Assembly: GCF_000182565.1 (NCBI RefSeq) | Contig: NW_015971537.1 | Coordinates: forward strand, 310,001-374,000 | Reading direction: 5' to 3' | Origin: Spizellomyces punctatus DAOM BR117 | Taxonomy: Eukaryota; Chytridiomycota; Chytridiomycetes; Spizellomycetales; Spizellomycetaceae | DNA: 64,000 bases | In this document: one piece after another, positions 1 to 53,631 of the stretch | Layout of the letters: the number at the start of each line of letters is the position of its first letter | How positions within the stretch are numbered: the stretch's first letter is position 1 | Translations under genes and position numbers: made by a program | The notes under the pieces: generated by a model | Database searches by the model: none | Told to the model about the DNA's origin: nothing | What the model saw: only the letters and a program-made list of their open reading frames with translations

Positions 1-2081
1 TCATATACCATCAATCTCTTCTTGTTCGGTTGATGGCCATACTGGATGTGATTAGGGTACGACCTTACGACAAACCCAATTGAACAACAGCGAAATGGAA
101 AATGGTCCTTACTTCACGTATTTGAGAAGAAGAACATATCAAATGCTATGGAACAATGTCAGCAGATCGACTACAAATCAAACTCTATTCTGAATTGAAA
201 TGGTCCGGGGGGTTTTTTTCCTCATCTAAATGGACAATAGAAAGGAGTGGAAGGCAACTGCTGACATCACTGGCAATGGTATCGTCGCCTGCATCGGAGA
301 TTGATCTCGTTTTCAATTTTGCTGTGACGTACCATGGGCAGCAAGAAGGAAACCTTACAAAAGGTAATAGCGACGAGTATCCTGAGAATTGTTGCACGTT
401 ATTGGGGCAAGGTTTGGTCTTCAGATGGAGGAAAATGATTCTGAACCGCAAAGCGCAAGTACGAAATCGATCATCTTGTGCCAGCAGTTATTCGCGATAT
501 CAGATCCCTCTTCATCATCTATTGCACACATTTGAAATTCGTGTCGTTGCGAGAAAGCATCCGGCGGCCAACGTGGGATTACGACACACGCAATAGCATT
601 TTCGATAGCTCCCGAACAGACGACTTTGGCAAAAACGTCCCTCAGGTGGCGTGGCGTGGCATCGATGTGGCGCGGTTCACTTAACACTGTGCCACATGCG
701 CGTTTCTCCGGTCGCCGCGAGATCAGGTTGCACCTCTGGGCATCTAATGGTTAAGAAAGAGCAGTAAGTGTCATATAGCGCGCTGGTAAAGTGTGCCCCT
801 CCGCGGCAAATGAATCGCCGTCTTTTAGCTGTTGGTCGCATGTTTCCATCCTAAAGATAAAATATTAAATAGCAGTGGATGTATCGCCGGTCACCATTGT
901 AGTGTGCTCGATCTTAGATTGCAACTGCATACGACTGGTTGTTTATCTTGGCATTGCGTCAACGCCCCAACTCTACATGGAAATAACTCATACGTGCTGA
1001 ACTTCCGGTTGTTCATATTCCAATCAACGGCCACAACTAAAAAGGGGCCAGCTTTCCCCCTCTTAGCTACTCGGTACCTACGAAATGTACTTGTTCTCCG
1101 CAGCACACTTCTCGCCCTATCAATGACAAGATATCTCTACTTTGCTGTTTGTCCCGTCCCTGATGCTTTCTCCCAACCTTCGCATTGATCTTTCTACGAA
1201 GCGTCGTCATGGGTCTTAGCATTTCAGTCGAATGTCGGACGGTAAAGGACATAATAAGTGGTTAAGCAACGACTCAAGTCGTTTTCAGAATGTGGATATG
1301 GCAGAGGTTTTTAGAACGACCCGTGGCTGCAATCGACACTACCTCCTGTAGACTGCTGTTCTCACCACAGCGATGGCACTGAGGCACGTGCTCTGGATTC
1401 CCTTACTGACACTGTTTACGAATTTGAAGCATATTCAGGTATCGAACTTTTCCACACAAATATGCGCTATAGCCAAAATAGTAGGAATGCCAAAATCCAC
1501 CACCTGTTGAGAGATCAGATGAGATTTCTTATTCGCGACATTCTCCTTTAGCACACCGCCATCTTCTTTATTACGAAACATCATCCAGGTGAGGCAGTAT
1601 CGTGCAAATGTACTCGGCGGCCACCATTCACCTGCTAGTCGAGTTCGCATATCAATTTAAAATCAGCGAATGGGAGAATATTTGCAAAAACTTGCTCCAG
1701 CTGAAGAAAAATGTGAACCGGTACACATTTGAAAGAAGGCAGTAGCAATTCCATTAAATACTATGGTATAATGGAAGGAGTGGTGTTATTGTTCCCGCCA
1801 ATGTCGATCTGCTACCAGATCAGATCCCACTTACCTTCTATCTGGAGACCGCTTGCTGGCTTCTCTTTGGGATAGTGTAGGACACAATGACAGGTATGAC
1901 AGCAATGTAGCGGTTCTAAAGGACTAGGTGACCTAGCTAAAGACATGTAGTGGACTGTCGTCGCTCGTTGTAGTTGATCGATTACGTAATGATCGTAGGC
2001 TCTGAAATTTTTTTGACGAGAAAAGCAGGTCCATTAGGCTTGTCTGATCTCTTTTGCAAAAGCACATTAACGCTCTGGACG
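1..2081. other. Left-edge stretch with no recognisable gene
   Basis: Only short, mutually overlapping reading frames are present and none matches a family I know. A short in-frame string resembling an FG-GAP-like repeat near 256-300 is too brief to call. The right end presumably holds the promoter and 5' leader of NOB1. No tRNA, repeat or transposon signature was seen. Confidence 0.5.
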
Positions 2082-43666: not shown

Positions 43667-46337
43667 ATGGACATTGCGGAAGCCCGGAGACTCGCAGACG
43701 CGGTGGCAGCAAAGTAAAAAATGAATGAACCTTTATCGTTCGTCCTGGTCACCACATTCGCTAAGTCATGTGAAACAGCTACCTCACCTGGCGGAGAGCA
43801 CGAGCAGCGAGAGGACAAGCGAATGCTGCTGCAGCAAGCACGGTACATCCGGCCAACTTTGTAGCCGGTCAACGTGACATGCTCGAACGGTAAGCGCATG
43901 ACTAGAGTGTCCGCTGTCCTGTTATCAACAGTTCATCACCATATCTAACAATATGACAGCCTGCAGTCTACAGCCAGACATGTCATGAAATATGATGATA
44001 TTGAACTCCAGGTTGATATACATATTAGCCAACCATGGCAACGTATATCCTTCAGTTGCTGACACTGGGCATTCACGTCTCAATAGGATATAGCTCGGAA
44101 TGAGATACCAATCGACCGATTACACGAGGAAGCACACAAATTGGTAGATGCAAATCCTGAAAGCGATTTCCATGATCATCTTGTGAAAGCACTCTTAAAA
44201 TGGTTCAAGAATGAGGTGGGTGCATCGGTCAGCTTAATCTGTGGCCAATTGGATATGCTATGGATTGACAAGCTCGATCCAGTATTTTGTTTGGGTGAAC
44301 GAACCACCGTGCGATTACTGCAAGGTAATGTTAATTGCTGAACGAGGTTCCTCTACATGCTCTAAATGTGTCTTATAGAGTCCTACAACGAGTGTCGGGG
44401 GAGCCGCGCCTACCGATGCAGAGCTCCGACATGGCGGAGGTCGGGTAGAACTTTATGTATGCACGTCTTGCCGCCGGCATACCCGCTTTCCACGCTACAA
44501 GTACGAATCTGGCAGTGTGCTCTTTATCGTGCTTCACACACTCTGACGTTTGTGAAGTGACCCAGTGAAGTTATGTGAGACCAGACGTGGCCGTTGTGGC
44601 GAGTGGGCGAATGTAAGGCATTTCGCACCGTATGTACAAGGCCCTGATAATGACTTGCATAACTAGGTGTTCTGTCTTTTTGCCAAAGCCATGGGATTTG
44701 AGACGCGGTACATTCTGGATTTTACGGATCATGTAAGTTCACGGTTTCAAGGTACCGTGTATTATGAACCTTATGCATTAATATCGGCCGCCAGGTCTGG
44801 ACAGAGATATATAATGAAAGGGAGAACCGCTGGAGTCGGTATTAGTATTGCTTAAGACTCAAGGGGGGATGACATTGCTCAAACTACTTTGCAGTAAACT
44901 GCGATTCATGTGAAGGAGAGCAATCCTATGATCAACCTTTGGTGTAAGTTACTCTTCTGTCGCGGCTATCTTGTGGTTTTTCATGATTAATGGTGTTGGC
45001 AGATATGAAGCGGGCTGGGGAAAGAAGCTGAACTACATCTTTGCCTTTGGCAGCCATGAAGTGGTGGATGTAATTCACAGATATACGCGCAACTTTGGGG
45101 AGGTGCAGACACGGCGAACTATGGTTAGCGAAGACTGGCTGGAGAAGGTAATCATGGGACGAGGAATTTCGGCGAGCCTTTTTGACCATCATATTTCGAA
45201 TTAGACGATTCGCGACATGACAGCCCGGAAAAGAGCCGATTTACCTCCAAGTGTTCGGGCAGAGCTGGAGGAACGTGATAAGACGGAACAAAGCCAGTTG
45301 AAAACCAATTTCCAACGATCAGCACATTCAGAGGAGCTGGTTCCGCGACAATCAGGTTCACTTGAATGGCGTGCGGCAAGAGGAGAATTAGGGAGTGGCG
45401 GAAATCAGAGCACTGTCAAACCACAGCAAGGTATCTTCAGATCTGTTGGAGACTTTATATATGATCATTTCTTAACAAATGACAATAGGGGAGAATGTTG
45501 TCTTCAAGCTGGGGGATACATCTGCTGATTTTGTATTGTCAGGTAAGGAAAAATCAACCTGTGTCGGCATGGTGCGACTCCTGATCGCCATTATGGCAAA
45601 CAGGAGCGGCGAAGAAAACAGGTCAATTGGTTGAGCTTACTCCAGCTCAGCCAGACAAGATTGGCAGTGTCTTTGCATCAAAGAAAATCGATCTCGGAGC
45701 GCCTTGCATCGTTGACTTTACCTTTCGCATTTCAAACAAGGATGGACGTTCGGCGGAGGGCTGTGGTGATGGGTTTGCTTTTGTCATTCAGTCGCATGCC
45801 TCGAGTGCTTGTGGCGCTTCCAATGTCGGCGGTTCTGGGTTGGGTTATGAAGGGATTCCTCATTCAGTTGCCGTTGAATTCGACACGTATGCCAATGGTA
45901 ATCGCGGCGACCCGAATGGGAATCACATCAGGTATGTTCGACATGCACAACGCTATATAGTGGATGCTTGCAATTCCTCATCGATTCAGTATAGTGTGCA
46001 AACACGAGGAAATTTACCGAACAGTGCACACCATGATTATTCCAAAGGTCTTGCTACCCGTCTACCGCCATTTAACAATGGGACCAACTACCATTGTCAG
46101 ATTATATGGATGCCATCTGAAAAGTCTTTACAGGTGCTTCTAACCGATAGGAGTGATGCAGCTGAGGATGTAGGAACAGATTTTGAGAGAATATTGACAG
46201 TAAAAGACATAGATTTGATTGAGATTTGCGGTAGTCCGTTGGCTTGGGTTGGTTTTACTGCTGCCACGGGTGGGCTCTGTCAACGGCATGAGATTTCTAG
46301 ATGGTGTGTTTGGCAAGGAGGCAAATCTGACCCCTGA
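43667..46337 (+). CDS. PNG1: Peptide:N-glycanase with C-terminal L-type-lectin-like domain
   Basis: Cytosolic PNGase removes N-glycans from misfolded glycoproteins exported by ERAD. Fifteen exons from 43667-43713 to 45995-46337 sum to 596 residues. The transglutaminase-like core is intact: zinc Cys pairs CDYC and CTSC, and a catalytic triad of Cys181 in GRCGEWANVF, His208 in TDHVWTEIY and Asp225 in NCDSCEGE. EAGWGKKLNYIFAFG and RYTRNFGEVQTRR are also family blocks. After a linker, residues about 365-596 read as a legume/L-type lectin fold: VELTPAQPDKIGSVF, CGDGFAFVIQ, GLGYEGIPHSVAVEFDTYAN, GNHISVQTRGNLPNSAHH and LAWVGFTAATGG. All joins keep frame, so the lectin part belongs to the same gene. 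The N-terminus has no recognisable PUB domain. Confidence 0.9.
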
Positions 46338-46515: not shown

Positions 46516-49500
46516 ATGGTAAGTGATCCATGGCTCCTTCGCTCTCTTTGTGAATCAAGCTGCTTTCCCTCGTCTCTGACACTCCCTGGTAATCTCACAA
46601 ATCACAACAGAGTCAGGTATCTGAAAAGACCCGGTAAGAGATCGAACGACATTGTTCATTGGAAAGTCTCCTCGCTGACAATGCTAGTATCTTAGACAAG
46701 TCATTGCAAAATACGACCGGGATGGAGATGGATACTGGACAGAGGATGACTTTAGAGAGGTTCGGAGTGAGCTTTCTACCACGAGGTCACTTGCGACACC
46801 GCGCTGACTTTTTTTGCTCCTCTCTCTTTTGAATGCGAATCACTAGTTTATGAGGGATATGGGGCATGGTGATATCGGCGCAAGTCGGATGCATGCCTCG
46901 TTCCAGTATCTCGATACGTCAAAGTTGGGAAAGATTGATGCTGTGATGTTTGAAAAGTATGTGTGTGTGTGCTTGCCTTTGGGAAGAGATTTCTTTGTTG
47001 CATTGGACAGGAAATGAAAAACTGCTACGAATACTGGACATTTGCTAATGATCCCATCAAATTAGGGGAATCAATCTCTTGTACGAACGAGACTTTTACT
47101 TTGGCAAACCTCGCAGTGATGACGATCTAAGTTCGGTTCGACTAACTGTTCGGTCTCGTCGGTATCCTGTTATCGTGAAACCTGAAGTATGGGTTCTTCT
47201 TCTGGTGTGTGCCCAACCTCGTTGGATGAGATCTGACTCTTATGGAAAAAGGTGTCGGATCCTATGCTCCTCTATACTTTGGTGGAGAAAGTGGGTGAAG
47301 GGTCATTTGGGGAGATTTACAAATCGTACGTTGGGATATCCAAAGCACCATTTTTTTTTAGGAAGCGAGGCTGATGATTCGTTTTTTATAGCGTCTCAAA
47401 GCAGGATCCGCAACGGTTCGTCGCCTTAAAGATAATCGATCTGGAACAAACACAGGATGACTTGGAGGATCTGCTGTAATATCTTTTGACACCACGATCT
47501 TTTAAGATAACCTGCTTTGCTCAACTATTGGATGTTGGGATATAGGTATGAAGTGGACTTTCAAGCCAAGTGCTTTTCGCCACATCTTGCGCGGTATTTC
47601 GGATCCTGGCTTTGGCATAGCAAGCTTTATATCGCAATGGTAGGTCCAGTTGTACTTGCCCTATTTCGCATTATCATAAAATTGACAAGATAGCTATTAG
47701 GAATACTTGGGCGGAGGAACCGCTGCAGAATTGGTAAGTGCCTTACAATACTTGCAATGGAACTGACAGATCATCTCATTGACGTTGTGTCAAACAGATC
47801 AAGTTTGCAAAGCTATCAGAGGAGCAATGTTCATACATTCTTCGTGAGGTTCTGAAAGGATTGGATTACATGCATTCAGAGAAACGGATACACCGAGATA
47901 TCAAAGGTCGTTTCAATGGCTCGCTTTGGCGATTTTCTGACAACGGCCACTTACAGCACTTATTTGATACAGCTGAAAATATACTATTTGACAATAGCGG
48001 CTCGTTAAAGCTCGCGGATTTTGGGGTTGCTGGGCAGATTGCGCCGAATAGTACGTCGAGGTCTACTTTCGTTGGAACTCCGGTGAGTTTTGTCAAATAG
48101 GCAATTTTTTTTATCATAGCATTATTTTTGATTTTGTATCGGTAGCTCTATATGGCGCCAGAGATTATCAGAGGCGAGGAATATGGAGTTAAGGTTGGTT
48201 CTGGCTGAAATCAGGTAATCGAACATGATACAAACCTCACAAATGTTTTCTCCAGGTCGACATATGGAGTGTAGGAATTCTGGCGATTGAACTAGCAACC
48301 GGCGCCCCACCTCGATCACATCTACATCCGATGGACGTAAGTTTGCGTATTGAAAGGTCCGTTTCCCATTCCATATGCAAACGTCGACTTTGTTGCAGGT
48401 GTTATATGCAACTGTTTCCGAGGATGCCCCCATACTGAAAGGATCACAGTTTTCTCCCGAGTTTCGTGACTTTGTTAGCAAATGCTTGACCAAACAGTCT
48501 GCAGAGGTAAGGTATCAATTGGTACCTTTTCTTATGGCCCGCGTGCTCAATAGCGAAATATGTGTAGCGCCCATCAGCCCGGGACCTTCTCTCCCACCCT
48601 TTCACACAGAAAGAACGAGATAAGGTCGTTTTGAGAGATAATCTTGAAAACTATTGGAGGAAACGGAAGGAACTTGCTGGAATTGCAGCCAAGACGGTCA
48701 CGTAAGACAGTATGCTGTGTCAAGTATGCGATGTTGGAGTGGTATGATAATAGCTTTTGTTGTTCTTTTTCCTTTGCGTCGGTTGGGTAGCCGTGGCGAT
48801 GATTGGTGGCAGCAGTATAACAAGGTAATTTATTGAAAGTATGCCAAAGTTCCCAGTCAAGTATACGGAACCAACTAATTCCGTTCACTTGACGCCTCAA
48901 GTTCCAGAGTCCAAAACCATCGTCACCAGTCGGTCCACAGGTCTCGGCAGCCGCTAGAGCGTCAATCCGCGCGGATCTCGCCCATATTGATCCAACCGCA
49001 ACGTACGGGAAGAGATCAGCGACGCGGGTATCGGACGGTGCAATGATGGGGAAGAACGTGCCGCTAGGACGAGCTATGGGCGTCAATATGCGAGGTGTCC
49101 CAGGGGTCTCTATGGCAGTCATTGAGGCTGCGCAACACCGATTACGCCCGGTAACTACGGACATGGGGAGACCAAGATCAGATACTGTAGATGCTGGACG
49201 GGGACGACCGATGACCCCGGGAGGTGGGGCCTCACGGTCCAATCTGAGGGAACCAGGTGGTGGTCCTCCGGGTGGAATAGCATTGCCGGTACCAATCCAG
49301 CCTCCAAAATTTCAGAAATCCTCAGCGTCTTCACTAGAACCCTCGGCACCTCCTCTGCCGCTTGAATACCAACCCCATCCGAGGCCGGTCCAGCCCGTAG
49401 GGTACGCACCCAACATGCCATTGCTTGTTGTCCCTCCTGGCCCTCCTGGCCCTCCAATGGTCTCACGGTCCCCAAGTCCATCACCACAAGACTCTGCGTT

Positions 49501-51349
49501 TGTTTATTACACGCCATCACCACCTTCCCCAGCACCATACATGAGCAGTGCCCCATCTCCTAGTGCCTCACCGAGAATATCGTATGCAGAGTCATCATAC
49601 CGGCCGGCTTCCACCTTTGTACCCATTGAACCCCCTGCACTGATTCAAAGGCCCTCGTCGGCAGGTCCCCGAATGCATCCATCGCCCCTTCAATCCACTG
49701 TAGCTCAAAATCGACGTATCTCTGCGCCCCCAGGTCCTGTCCAACCACAGGGAGGTCACCGGCTGGGACCTCAACCCGCTGTACGTGGACAACTACCCGA
49801 CGGTGGGGCGTCCGAAGGGGTCATGCCCGGCCGAGACCGCTCAGCATCTACTTCCTCGTTTAATGCTCCTATTCAACCACCTCGATTGAGCACCGAGCCT
49901 CCCAAATTGAAGCCAGGCGGTCGACCAATCTCTACCATATCCGATCTACGTGAAGTAGATTTGTCAGATACATTCAAAAAGATCGTTCCAACGTCTTTGC
50001 AACATGCGCTCTCGTTTGATTCACAAGAGCGCACTCTTGGATTCCTCGGAGTTCTCGATGAGTTGTATTGTACTGAATTGCGTTACATGGAGACTCTCCA
50101 ATCCATTATGGAGGTCTATGTGCGACCGTTGATTGCCCCACCAAAGGGCAAAAGTCAGGTCTTGAAGGAAGATCAGATAAAGACGATTTTTGCAAACTTG
50201 AGTCCACTGCATTTATTTAGTGTGCAGTGGCAGAATGAGGTGAAAGGGGCTATGGAGATGGCCAATGCGGGCAATGTGGTCGAGTATTTGATGAAAGCCC
50301 TGGATGCTTTGGTCAGTTCAATTTTGTGAATATCAGTAAAAAACGAGGGCACCTGGTTTAACCTTCTTCACCTGTGCTGTACAGACCCCAACGCTTCAAC
50401 AGCTGTACACGCAATACGCTGACAATTTCTGCGCTGCAATGTGGGAAATTCAAAAGTGCTTGCGTGAGAGCTCCAAATTCCGAGACTTTGCGACGCATGC
50501 ACAGCTCGATAAGCAATGCGGCGGACGGTCTCTGTACGAGTTGATGAAGGCACCTTTTGGACGGTTGACTCAATGCGTCATGCTATATGAAGGTTCACAT
50601 CCGATATGGCTAGCCGATATGGGTCTAATCGAGATTTTTACTGACTGTCAGCTTTGCAATAGAACTTGCGGAAGCAGGCCAAGTGCAAGAATTCTTGACG
50701 ACAGTTAGCTACATTTCAAAGTTGTCCGCTGACATGGCGGCAGCACAGGATAATTGGGAAAATCTGATCTCAATGTTGGTGCATATAGCCAACATCCCAC
50801 CTGCAGTATGTCTAGTGTCGCTTATTCGTTGTCAATATTTTTGTTAATTTTCATATGATGGCATTCCCCGTTCAAAGGTCATTCTCAAACGAGGTCAGCA
50901 TATCCTTATTGAGGAGACAGTTGACAAGGTCAAGATAAACTCCAACGGCTCCGTAACCTCCCGCAAACCCGTTCGACTATATCTCCTCAAAGATGTTTTC
51001 ATTGTGACAAAAGTTTTAAAGGACGCTCATGAACCTGTGGATTTGGCGTTCTTGTTAAATCCGAGCAAAAATGTGAAGCTTCCTAAACCCACATTGCAAT
51101 ATCGGACACTGCAGTTGAGGGATTTTGTCAAGGCGGATGTAATTGCTGGGAAAGATGGTTAGAAATGAGCGATGAGGACTTTGTCGTCGTTTGCTGTGCA
51201 TCTCATGCTATGCATTTCTAGGTGATCGCGGAACAAGCATGTTTAGTGTTACGGTGACGTTGAAGAAGGGCAAGACATATCACTTCTCCGCCTCGTCAGT
51301 AGCAGCAAGGGATCGATGGATTGAGTCTTTGAATCCTGAGCCAGTATGA
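46516..51349 (+). CDS. EF-hand / STE20-type kinase / DH-PH RhoGEF fusion protein
   Basis: Predicted multidomain signalling protein. Twenty-one exons join in frame to 1130 residues. Residues 16-27 form an EF-hand loop (DRDGDGYWTEDD), with a degenerate second hand after it. Residues about 108-370 are a GCKIII-like kinase: GEGSFGEIY, VALK (Lys145), HRDIK (Asp236), DFG (Asp254), FVGTPLYMAPE, DIWSVGILAIELATG. After a Pro/Ser-rich linker, residues about 787-970 form a DH RhoGEF domain (LDELYCTELRYMETLQ) and about 996-1130 a PH domain ending RWIESLNPEPV. The first coding exon is the ATG alone. The critical join is the intron 48702-48790: if unspliced, a stop at 48703-48705 ends the protein right after the kinase. 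Likely role: calcium-responsive kinase coupled to Rho/Cdc42 activation, by inference. Confidence 0.8.
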
Positions 51350-51528: not shown

Positions 51529-52092
51529 ATGAGCCGGCCTGACGAGAGTCCACTTGATGCCATGCTGGATCCCCAAAAAAATCCTGACGCTCCACTTCCA
51601 CCTCTGGATATCGTCGCACCCGTTTTGGGCGTCCCAGCTCCTTCGAGGGACAGACCTCCGCCGCTATCGGGCTCTCTCATCTATTTCGAGATCCCATGTC
51701 AACATGTTTCTCGAGCCAAAGCTTTTTACAAGTTGCTCTTTGATTGGTCGTACCAAAAGACGCCAGAGTATTCTGAATGGGACTACCTCTTGATCAACCG
51801 AGACAAGAAACACCTCCATCCTGTTTTTGGAGCATTCAAGAAGGTGGATGCACCCATTGCAGGGGCCGAAGGCACTGGCAAAGACGTGGAAGGGCCAATG
51901 CTTCACTTTTACGTGGATAATATTGAAAAGGCATGCGAGGAGGCGGTCAAGGTGGATGGGAGCGTTGTGAGGCCAAAGTTCAAGTTTGGGTGGGAGCAGG
52001 ATATCATTGGATATTGTGCCTGGTTGAGGGATACTGAAGGGAATAAGTTTGCTATATATGAGGTCGAGCCGCACGGCCCCGTCGAGGAGTAA
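51529..52092 (+). CDS. VOC (glyoxalase/bleomycin-resistance fold) protein
   Basis: Intronless 187-residue protein of the vicinal-oxygen-chelate superfamily. The VOC unit begins GSLIYFEIPCQHVSRAKAFY, with a later MLHFYVDNIEKACEEA and the final strand DTEGNKFAIYEVEPHG. That resembles the small stand-alone VOC proteins annotated as glyoxalase-like, whose substrates are mostly unknown. A Pro-rich N-terminal extension of about 45 residues precedes the domain. The end lies close to the family's minimal size for one module. No neighbour points to a pathway. Confidence 0.85.
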   Translation: MSRPDESPLDAMLDPQKNPDAPLPPLDIVAPVLGVPAPSRDRPPPLSGSLIYFEIPCQHVSRAKAFYKLLFDWSYQKTPEYSEWDYLLINRDKKHLHPVFGAFKKVDAPIAGAEGTGKDVEGPMLHFYVDNIEKACEEAVKVDGSVVRPKFKFGWEQDIIGYCAWLRDTEGNKFAIYEVEPHGPVEE

Positions 52093-52513: not shown

Positions 52514-52828
52514 TCATTTGTTTGAGCCTACACCTTCAACGTTTATTGCCTTCTCCACAAGCGCCGGGTCGACTGACGCTTCAGGAACAGAGCATGCCGA
52601 TTTCTTTGGGCGGCCAATTCGCTTTTTTGGAGCGGCAGTTCCTGTCTCTTTGTACCTCTGGATGGTTGCCAAGATGGTACTCTTGGAAATACCAAATTCC
52701 TGACTGATGCGACGAGAGCTAGCCCCCATCTTGTGAGCGCCGATAATCTGCCATCGTACACTGTTGGGTAGCTCGGAGCGAGTTTTCGAACGAGCCAAAG
52801 CAGATTTAGGCTCTTCAATGGTCTGCAT
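52514..52828 (-). CDS. Tc1/IS630-type HTH protein, no DDE domain
   Basis: A 104-residue ATG-initiated frame that looks like the N-terminal DNA-binding part of Tc1/mariner or IS630-type transposases: SVRWQIIGAHKMGASSRRIS, then EFGISKSTILATIQRYKETG, and the basic GRPKK hook. The catalytic DDE domain is absent downstream and no terminal inverted repeats were recognised. It could be a decayed transposon fragment or a small domesticated HTH protein. A 179-codon frame on the opposite strand overlaps it and has no known similarity. Confidence 0.55.
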   Translation of the reverse strand: MQTIEEPKSALARSKTRSELPNSVRWQIIGAHKMGASSRRISQEFGISKSTILATIQRYKETGTAAPKKRIGRPKKSACSVPEASVDPALVEKAINVEGVGSNK

Positions 52829-53631
52829 TTGGAATATCGACTGTCAAATCAATGGGTATCTACGCAAGAGCGTTTTGTCATGTTTTGTCTTGCAAGGAAG
52901 GAAGAGCCCTGGACGACGGGATGACCTGAAGAGTCTACTCGACGTAACCTTACAGCTGCGCGATACAGTCACGTTTATCAAAGGCACAGTCACACTGAGC
53001 ATTCTGCATGTACGTTGGTCACTTGCCAATCGTCGCATGCCTTACCATAAAACCAGCCGCAGCATCATCACCCCATGCAGTGCTCTCTGCTCCCACCCTG
53101 TTCAACCAAGCAAATGTTCGACAAGCATCATCCTGTGGTAAATCAACGCCATGCCATGGTCGAACATTCTTGAACAGGCAGATTGAAATTTATTCGTCAC
53201 ATCAACTTGTCCGAAATGTCCGACCCACGTGCTTATGGTTTGTTCCGGAGTGACTGTAAAGACAACAATTGGAATGCATTCCAATGCCATGTACAAATCA
53301 CATGCGAAACACAGATATGCGAAATACGTCATCGTTACCTCTGATGGATACATTTCCATGGGCGCAGTTGAACCAATCGCCCCGTTTTCACAAGTTTTTT
53401 TGTCCCATCCTCCTATCCTTTTTAATTTCTCCTTTTTGAGAGTAATTAACCATGGATCCACCCAAATGACTCATCCTTCGTTGAAATCATTTTGGGATTT
53501 TCCCACGCGCGAGATTTTAAACCCTTTTGGTTGAAGGGGAGGAGGAAGGGCAGCAAGCTTCCGTTGTCTTTCGTTTTCAACTTTTTTCTACAAGGACCTT
53601 CCCTCGTTGCGAACCTTTTGAAAATCCTGCG
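52829..53631. other. Intergenic region
   Basis: About 800 bp upstream of the Ser-rich gene and of the HTH frame. Only short unrecognised frames, including a 119-codon minus-strand frame at 53102-53461 with no family match. No inverted repeats were seen by eye. Confidence 0.4.

Follow-up and report, generated by a model that had tools for sequence, protein, structure and literature searches.

Does a single chytrid gene place a protein kinase and a guanine nucleotide exchange factor (GEF) for Rho-family GTPases on one polypeptide, and if so, how might such a protein work? We addressed this question in a window of 64,000 bases from Spizellomyces punctatus DAOM BR117 (bases 310001–374000 of contig C1, NW_015971537.1; assembly GCF_000182565.1, 24.0 Mb in 29 contigs). 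A preliminary description, made from the sequence of this window, had joined exons by hand into one frame of 1130 codons, reading it as a calcium-binding EF-hand, a complete GCKIII-like kinase, a disordered linker, a DH (RhoGEF) domain and a PH domain that together would form a Ca2+-to-Rho-to-kinase relay. Comparison with relatives indicates that the locus encodes one conserved chytrid protein with an EF-hand-like module, a GCKIII-derived kinase, a linker, DH and PH, in that order; the relay was not borne out.

Results

One gene and one predicted chain in several chytrid orders

The fusion gene (46516–51349, forward strand) runs from start codon to stop through 21 exons, and its 20 introns, all GT...AG and 61–109 bases long, leave 1130 amino acids in one frame, as found by exon joining and by tblastn with the database protein P0001. 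Exon 17 was taken to start at 48908, at the same CAG acceptor as in P0001; an AAG acceptor six bases earlier would give 1132 residues. The frame assembled by hand was thus recovered, and chance or a hand-joining artefact was rejected, as independent gene models yield the same protein. The whole protein is 96% identical to a protein of Spizellomyces sp. 'palustris', and a domain search of the joined chain, which the preliminary description had proposed, recovered EF-hand_6, kinase and DH matches together with a weak PH match (Table 1).

We then found kinase and DH on a single chain in 11 of 15 database relatives, representing nine chytrid genera among the matches listed, so that the same fused model does occur in other sequenced chytrids: Spizellomyces (P0001), Geranomyces (P0002), Thoreauomyces (P0003), Rhizophlyctis (P0004 and P0005), Quaeritorhiza (P0006), Synchytrium (P0008 and P0009), Borealophlyctis (P0010), Lobulomyces (P0012) and Nowakowskiella (P0014). 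The searches scored word-sharing candidates, and in one of them 120 of 3765 matches were listed; the family alignment has 16 rows, and motif counts refer to rows covering the place in question. Some joined models are incomplete. P0004 and P0006 begin within the kinase, P0010 stops within the DH (26.7 bits, just below the cut-off), and in P0014 part of the kinase is missing and the DH-PH falls under Pfam detection, yet gave an hhalign match of 99.9% over 310 columns. The NCBI taxonomy of the fused proteins looked up comprised Rhizophlyctidales, Synchytriales, Lobulomycetales, Cladochytriales and Quaeritorhizaceae; Geranomyces, Thoreauomyces and Spizellomyces belong to Spizellomycetales. Batrachochytrium, Rhizoclosmatium, Chytriomyces, Gonapodya and Blastocladiomycota were not among the matches listed, which for word-sharing candidates is not evidence of absence. 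Because kinase and DH share a chain in so many relatives and genera, a joining artefact is very unlikely.

Two motifs bear on whether translation passes through the disputed stretch between kinase and DH (48568–49000). The first, WWxxY, is encoded by a 34-base micro-exon and occurred in 12 of the 13 rows covering its place (12 of 16 overall), as DWW in ten and SWW in Geranomyces and Thoreauomyces; among rows without it, P0011 and P0015 end before the place, P0007 begins only after it, and P0010 has a different sequence there. The second, IRxD...TYG, occurred in 12 of 12 covering rows, in altered form in P0014. Both sit after the stop at 48703 and before the DH frame reaches its first ATG (49043; open reading frame 48893–50329), and both are conserved as protein between orders and across two introns, as untranslated DNA would not be, which argues for translation through this stretch.

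Several annotations weigh against a single chain. Phlyctochytrium arcticum is annotated with two proteins, a kinase-only P0011 of 401 amino acids and a DH-only P0007 of 620 amino acids, each on a contig of 1458904 bases, and short kinase-only models were also found in Blyttiomyces (P0013) and Gaertneriomyces (P0015). P0011 ends about three residues beyond the equivalent of the intron 15 start, P0007 begins inside the linker, and P0013 stops a few residues after the WWxxY segment. Such models, and the stop that directly follows the exon 15 donor, would be expected if one locus gave two products, the full-length fusion and an EF-hand–kinase form made by intron 15 retention or early polyadenylation, leaving the kinase free of the GEF in some stages. 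We regard such a second product as unlikely: a phase-2 intron beginning GTAA gives a stop whenever it is retained, so the intron 15 stop is no evidence of selection, and short models are a common annotation fault.

Two observations concern the database records themselves. P0004 and P0005, both filed as Rhizophlyctis rosea, clearly differ and may come from strains that have diverged, from separate copies of the gene or from a record with the wrong label. P. arcticum is filed under Chytridiales at NCBI, yet by its kinase and DH-PH sequences it falls with Spizellomyces, Geranomyces and Thoreauomyces.

Linker, DH and PH domains

The predicted disordered linker (about 315 residues), the DH and the PH were confirmed in the same chain as the kinase. 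The DH and PH folds are well supported in structure models, in which the DH helices extend beyond the Pfam limits, and the PH lies directly C-terminal to the DH, as in Dbl-family RhoGEFs. The fold match used a model from P0006, with aligned rows mostly in residues 463–827 (a few reaching to 413), and covers DH-PH; a fold search with the full-length P0001 model returned kinases only among the 50 matches listed. All six members of alignment A4 matched the DH family PF00621, and P0014, outside A4, did not. Scanning the S. punctatus genome for DH gave hits at C1:360051 and C1:360397, and searches of the same genome gave no convincing DH-PH paralogue elsewhere (best other match E 0.023, 24% identity); the first 107 residues matched nothing but exons of the fusion gene itself at E up to 10.

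The CR1 glutamate, CR3 proline and CR3 arginine were invariant in all six aligned sequences, the CR1 residue pairing with the first Glu of intersectin TEENY. This glutamate has a catalytic role in DH domains. Points against an active exchange factor are the divergence of the DH (13–20% identical to DH-PHs of known structure in the fold tables) and the presence in the family of Gln or Glu at a CR3 position where intersectin has Arg. Together with a best profile match, ECT2, of 2.1e-18 and a Nowakowskiella DH that Pfam does not detect, these features would suit a pseudo-GEF that binds membrane or GTPase as a scaffold and places the kinase without nucleotide exchange. We judge this improbable given the three invariant residues, and ECT2, with Ser at the CR3 position in question, is nonetheless an established GEF.

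A GCKIII-derived kinase

The catalytic motifs of the kinase were intact, and the nearest solved kinases were MST3, STK25 and MST4 at 286–300 bits, compared with about 237 for MST1. Among 24 kinases placed in a tree, the fusion family (13 rows) formed a single clade (support 100/100, branch 1.19) adjoining canonical GCKIII, and the two together were split with support 89/90 from the only outgroups, three further S. punctatus kinases labelled PAK-, MST1/2- and OSR-like by eye; the canonical GCKIII rows were not resolved as a clade of their own. The activation segment reads GTPLYMAPE in the fusion kinases (GTPLYLAPE in Lobulomyces) versus GTPFWMAPE in canonical GCKIII.

Weighing against a GCKIII assignment, the MO25-binding WxF (site D) motif expected behind the kinase was absent from all 16 family rows, 12 of which cover its place fully (P0007, P0011, P0013 and P0015 do so incompletely). 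In most rows WWxxY occupies this place, about 40 residues after HPF in the window's protein versus 52 for WNF in the canonical kinase, and may be an altered counterpart of WxF. WxF is required for Kic1–Hym1 binding (PMC3804511), and its mutation in MST3 and MST4 lowers basal activity only 2- to 3-fold with MO25 stimulation retained (PMC3725419). An MO25 gene is present in the S. punctatus genome, as is a separate canonical GCKIII at C1:306.1–308.2 kb (L030:2575–4735), which lies outside the window, some 48 kb upstream of the fusion gene. This GCKIII carries the WNF form of WxF and shares 73–76% identity with the seven database GCKIII proteins in the comparison and 48% with the fusion kinase; its presence rules out the fusion as the canonical GCKIII orthologue. 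Given its own clade, the missing WxF and the separate canonical gene, the fusion kinase is, on these comparisons, GCKIII-derived and not a canonical GCKIII. The canonical gene stays in frame across ...MAP-EVIKQ only with what looks like a 2-base micro-exon (AG), at L030:3552–3553, between two GT–AG introns.

EF-hand-like module and the proposed relay

A canonical Ca2+-binding EF-hand has a 12-residue loop with a bidentate Glu at position 12. Loop 1 of the N-terminal module starts DxDxDG[YF]WT in all nine rows containing it (of 16), with Asp at position 12 in six, Asn in three and Glu in none, and loop 2 is degenerate. EF-hand_6 scored above the cut-off in the window's protein, P0002 and P0011. 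Counting against a constant EF-hand, both Synchytrium proteins (P0008 and P0009) and Nowakowskiella P0014 scored below it, and the Lobulomyces P0012 model, whose start may be cut, had no EF-hand. The atypical position 12 and degenerate loop 2 make the calcium sensor of the preliminary description a weak claim; in several centrins Asp or Asn at this position lowers or abolishes Ca2+ binding, and prediction and measurement can differ, according to a centrin review (PMC8622359). The N-terminal EF-hand pair probably serves in regulation or docking and binds Ca2+ weakly or not at all.

Neither a CRIB/PBD domain nor another known Rho-binding effector domain was among the 13 Pfam families listed for the protein at E up to 1. 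STE20 kinases of the PAK type, which have a CRIB domain, act downstream of Rho/Cdc42, and GCKIII kinases are not known to be CRIB effectors; the general statement that STE20 kinases act downstream of Rho/Cdc42 thus applies to the PAK type and does not carry over here. Without a CRIB, the kinase is not necessarily an effector of whichever GTPase is activated by its own DH, and a closed GEF–GTPase–kinase loop is not implied. A relay in which Ca2+ on the EF-hand switches on the DH, and GTP-bound Rho/Cdc42 then activates the attached kinase, could draw on the EF-hand_6 match and the constant D-x-D-x-D-G, but given the position 12 residues, loop 2 and the lack of a listed effector domain we consider it highly doubtful.

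Neighbouring open frames

An open frame with a legume/L-type lectin domain (45585–46337, same strand as the fusion; PF18483, 1.8e-24) ends about 180 bases before the fusion start codon, and an intronless glyoxalase-like open frame (51529–52092; PF18029/PF00903, scanned from 51538) begins about 180 bases after the fusion stop. By eye, and with no search made, an open frame on the minus strand (52514–52843) resembles a transposase-type helix-turn-helix (RWQIIGAHKMGASSRRISQEFGISKSTI).

Table 1 Features of the fusion gene in the window. pLDDT, predicted local distance difference test.
Feature	Residues or exons	Positions	Strand	Basis or remark
Exons 1–11		46516-46518, 46611-46633, 46696-46759, 46847-46956, 47066-47186, 47252-47325, 47392-47475, 47546-47639, 47701-47733, 47798-47906, 47973-48082	+	
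Exons 12–21		48146-48193, 48256-48336, 48399-48506, 48568-48701, 48791-48824, 48908-50311, 50385-50592, 50663-50805, 50878-51157, 51222-51349	+	
EF-hand-like module	residues 10-36 (exons 3-4)	46697-46864	+	Pfam EF-hand_6, 28.3 bits
Loop 1, DRDGDGYWTEDD		46715-46750	+	
Loop 2, degenerate		46913-46948	+	
GCKIII-like protein kinase domain	residues 115-366 (exons 6-15)	47273-48603	+	Pfam, 220 bits; best PDB match MST3/STK24
Intron 15		48702-48790	+	unspliced, stop at 48703 and 399-residue EF-hand–kinase form
Micro-exon with WWxxY (DDWWQQY, 48798-48818)		48791-48824	+	family alignment; tblastn
Post-kinase motif AAARASIRADLAHIDPTATYGK (IRxD...TYG)		48947-49012	+	same exon and frame as DH start
Pro/Ser-rich linker, predicted disordered (approximate limits)		49013-49955	+	pLDDT < 50 over nearly all of P0001 438-764
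DH (RhoGEF) domain, Pfam extent	residues 792-951 of the 1130-residue form (exons 17-19)	50051-50673	+	Pfam PF00621, 80.8 bits (curated cut-off 27.6)
PH domain	about residues 1004-1128 (exons 20-21)	50902-51340	+	weak Pfam; structure models; fold match

Discussion

The weakest alternative, that a gene for an EF-hand kinase, ending at 48703, was wrongly joined here and in the databases to a neighbouring gene for DH-PH, would explain the paired P. arcticum models and the immediate stop in unspliced intron 15, but is hardly credible beside the joined proteins of nine genera, the WWxxY and IRxD...TYG motifs conserved as protein ahead of the DH-frame ATG, and P. arcticum termini that fit truncated models.

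From the computed reading frame, domain folds, conservation, kinase motifs and CR1 glutamate of this single chain, we infer GEF and kinase activity and a role in cell division or cell shape. The DH-PH would probably load a Rho-family GTPase at a PH-bound membrane, with Cdc42 or Rac likelier than Rho, and the linker would keep the kinase at the same site as the GEF. There the kinase might phosphorylate local substrates, perhaps the linker or the GEF itself, opening a route to mutual regulation, and the EF-hand-like module would regulate or dock. We give about even chances to this reading, in which a long flexible linker connects a GCKIII-derived kinase to a Dbl-type DH-PH, as a one-chain counterpart of the Ustilago proteins Don1 and Don3. 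More tentatively, and with considerable doubt, the fusion may be a covalent polarity or cytokinesis module that arose early in the chytrid radiation, in which GEF and kinase are always co-recruited and regulate each other in cis, and which times actin-based cellularization or zoospore shape change.

On this more tentative reading, the natural fusion predicts that GEF and kinase are directly coupled in the Don1/Don3-type modules that other fungi keep split. Conservation of the fusion would make such coupling directly testable, as single alleles could remove kinase, GEF or linker, and Spizellomyces is described as a transformable genus in which actin drives zoospore crawling and cellularization (PMC7213984). 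The main text of a report on chytrid cellularization (PMC11974727) contains none of Rho, Cdc42, calcium, kinase and Ect2 as a whole word. Database names of the family proteins, among those listed, were mostly 'STK24/25', 'serine/threonine kinase' or 'hypothetical', so that the DH-PH half is invisible to readers of names.

Among known systems, the nearest kinase domains by sequence and tree are those of canonical GCKIII (MST3/STK24, STK25 and MST4; Nak1 and Kic1), from which the fusion kinases differ in lacking WxF, in their GTPLYMAPE segment and in carrying an EF-hand-like module and DH-PH. In Ustilago maydis, the Cdc42 GEF Don1 and the Ste20-like germinal centre kinase Don3 act in one Cdc42 module (PMC3098242). 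This module, which drives actomyosin-ring-dependent septation, likewise combines the two activities, Rho-family GEF and germinal centre kinase, but on two separate proteins and with no EF-hand. Don1 also has a FYVE domain. The parallel is a functional analogy only, and to that extent it counts against our reading. Yeast Kic1 with the centrin Cdc31 similarly pairs a germinal-centre-type kinase with an EF-hand protein (CDC31-KIC1p, listed in PMC8622359); there the EF-hands are on a separate protein, whereas the degenerate chytrid pair lies within the kinase chain.

Kinase and DH-PH also share one polypeptide in the animal proteins Trio, Kalirin and obscurin. These differ from the chytrid fusion in having a CaMK/MLCK-type kinase C-terminal to the DH-PH and no EF-hand. 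The Dictyostelium kinome includes a unique STE-group kinase with RhoGEF and a LISK kinase with IQ-RhoGEF (PMC1420674). The former likewise joins an STE-group kinase and a RhoGEF on one protein, which qualifies the preliminary statement that no fusion with this domain order and an STE20-type kinase was known; both are set apart by description, being of another lineage, not called GCKIII in the passages covered and with no EF-hand mentioned in the main text. The domain order itself stayed unmatched, with no description of the EF-GCKIII-linker-DH-PH architecture among the matches listed in open-licence PMC text (titles, term counts and abstract starts). Kinase–RhoGEF chains as such were thus already known from animals and Dictyostelium, and what is new is the EF-GCKIII-linker-DH-PH order, kept across several chytrid orders.

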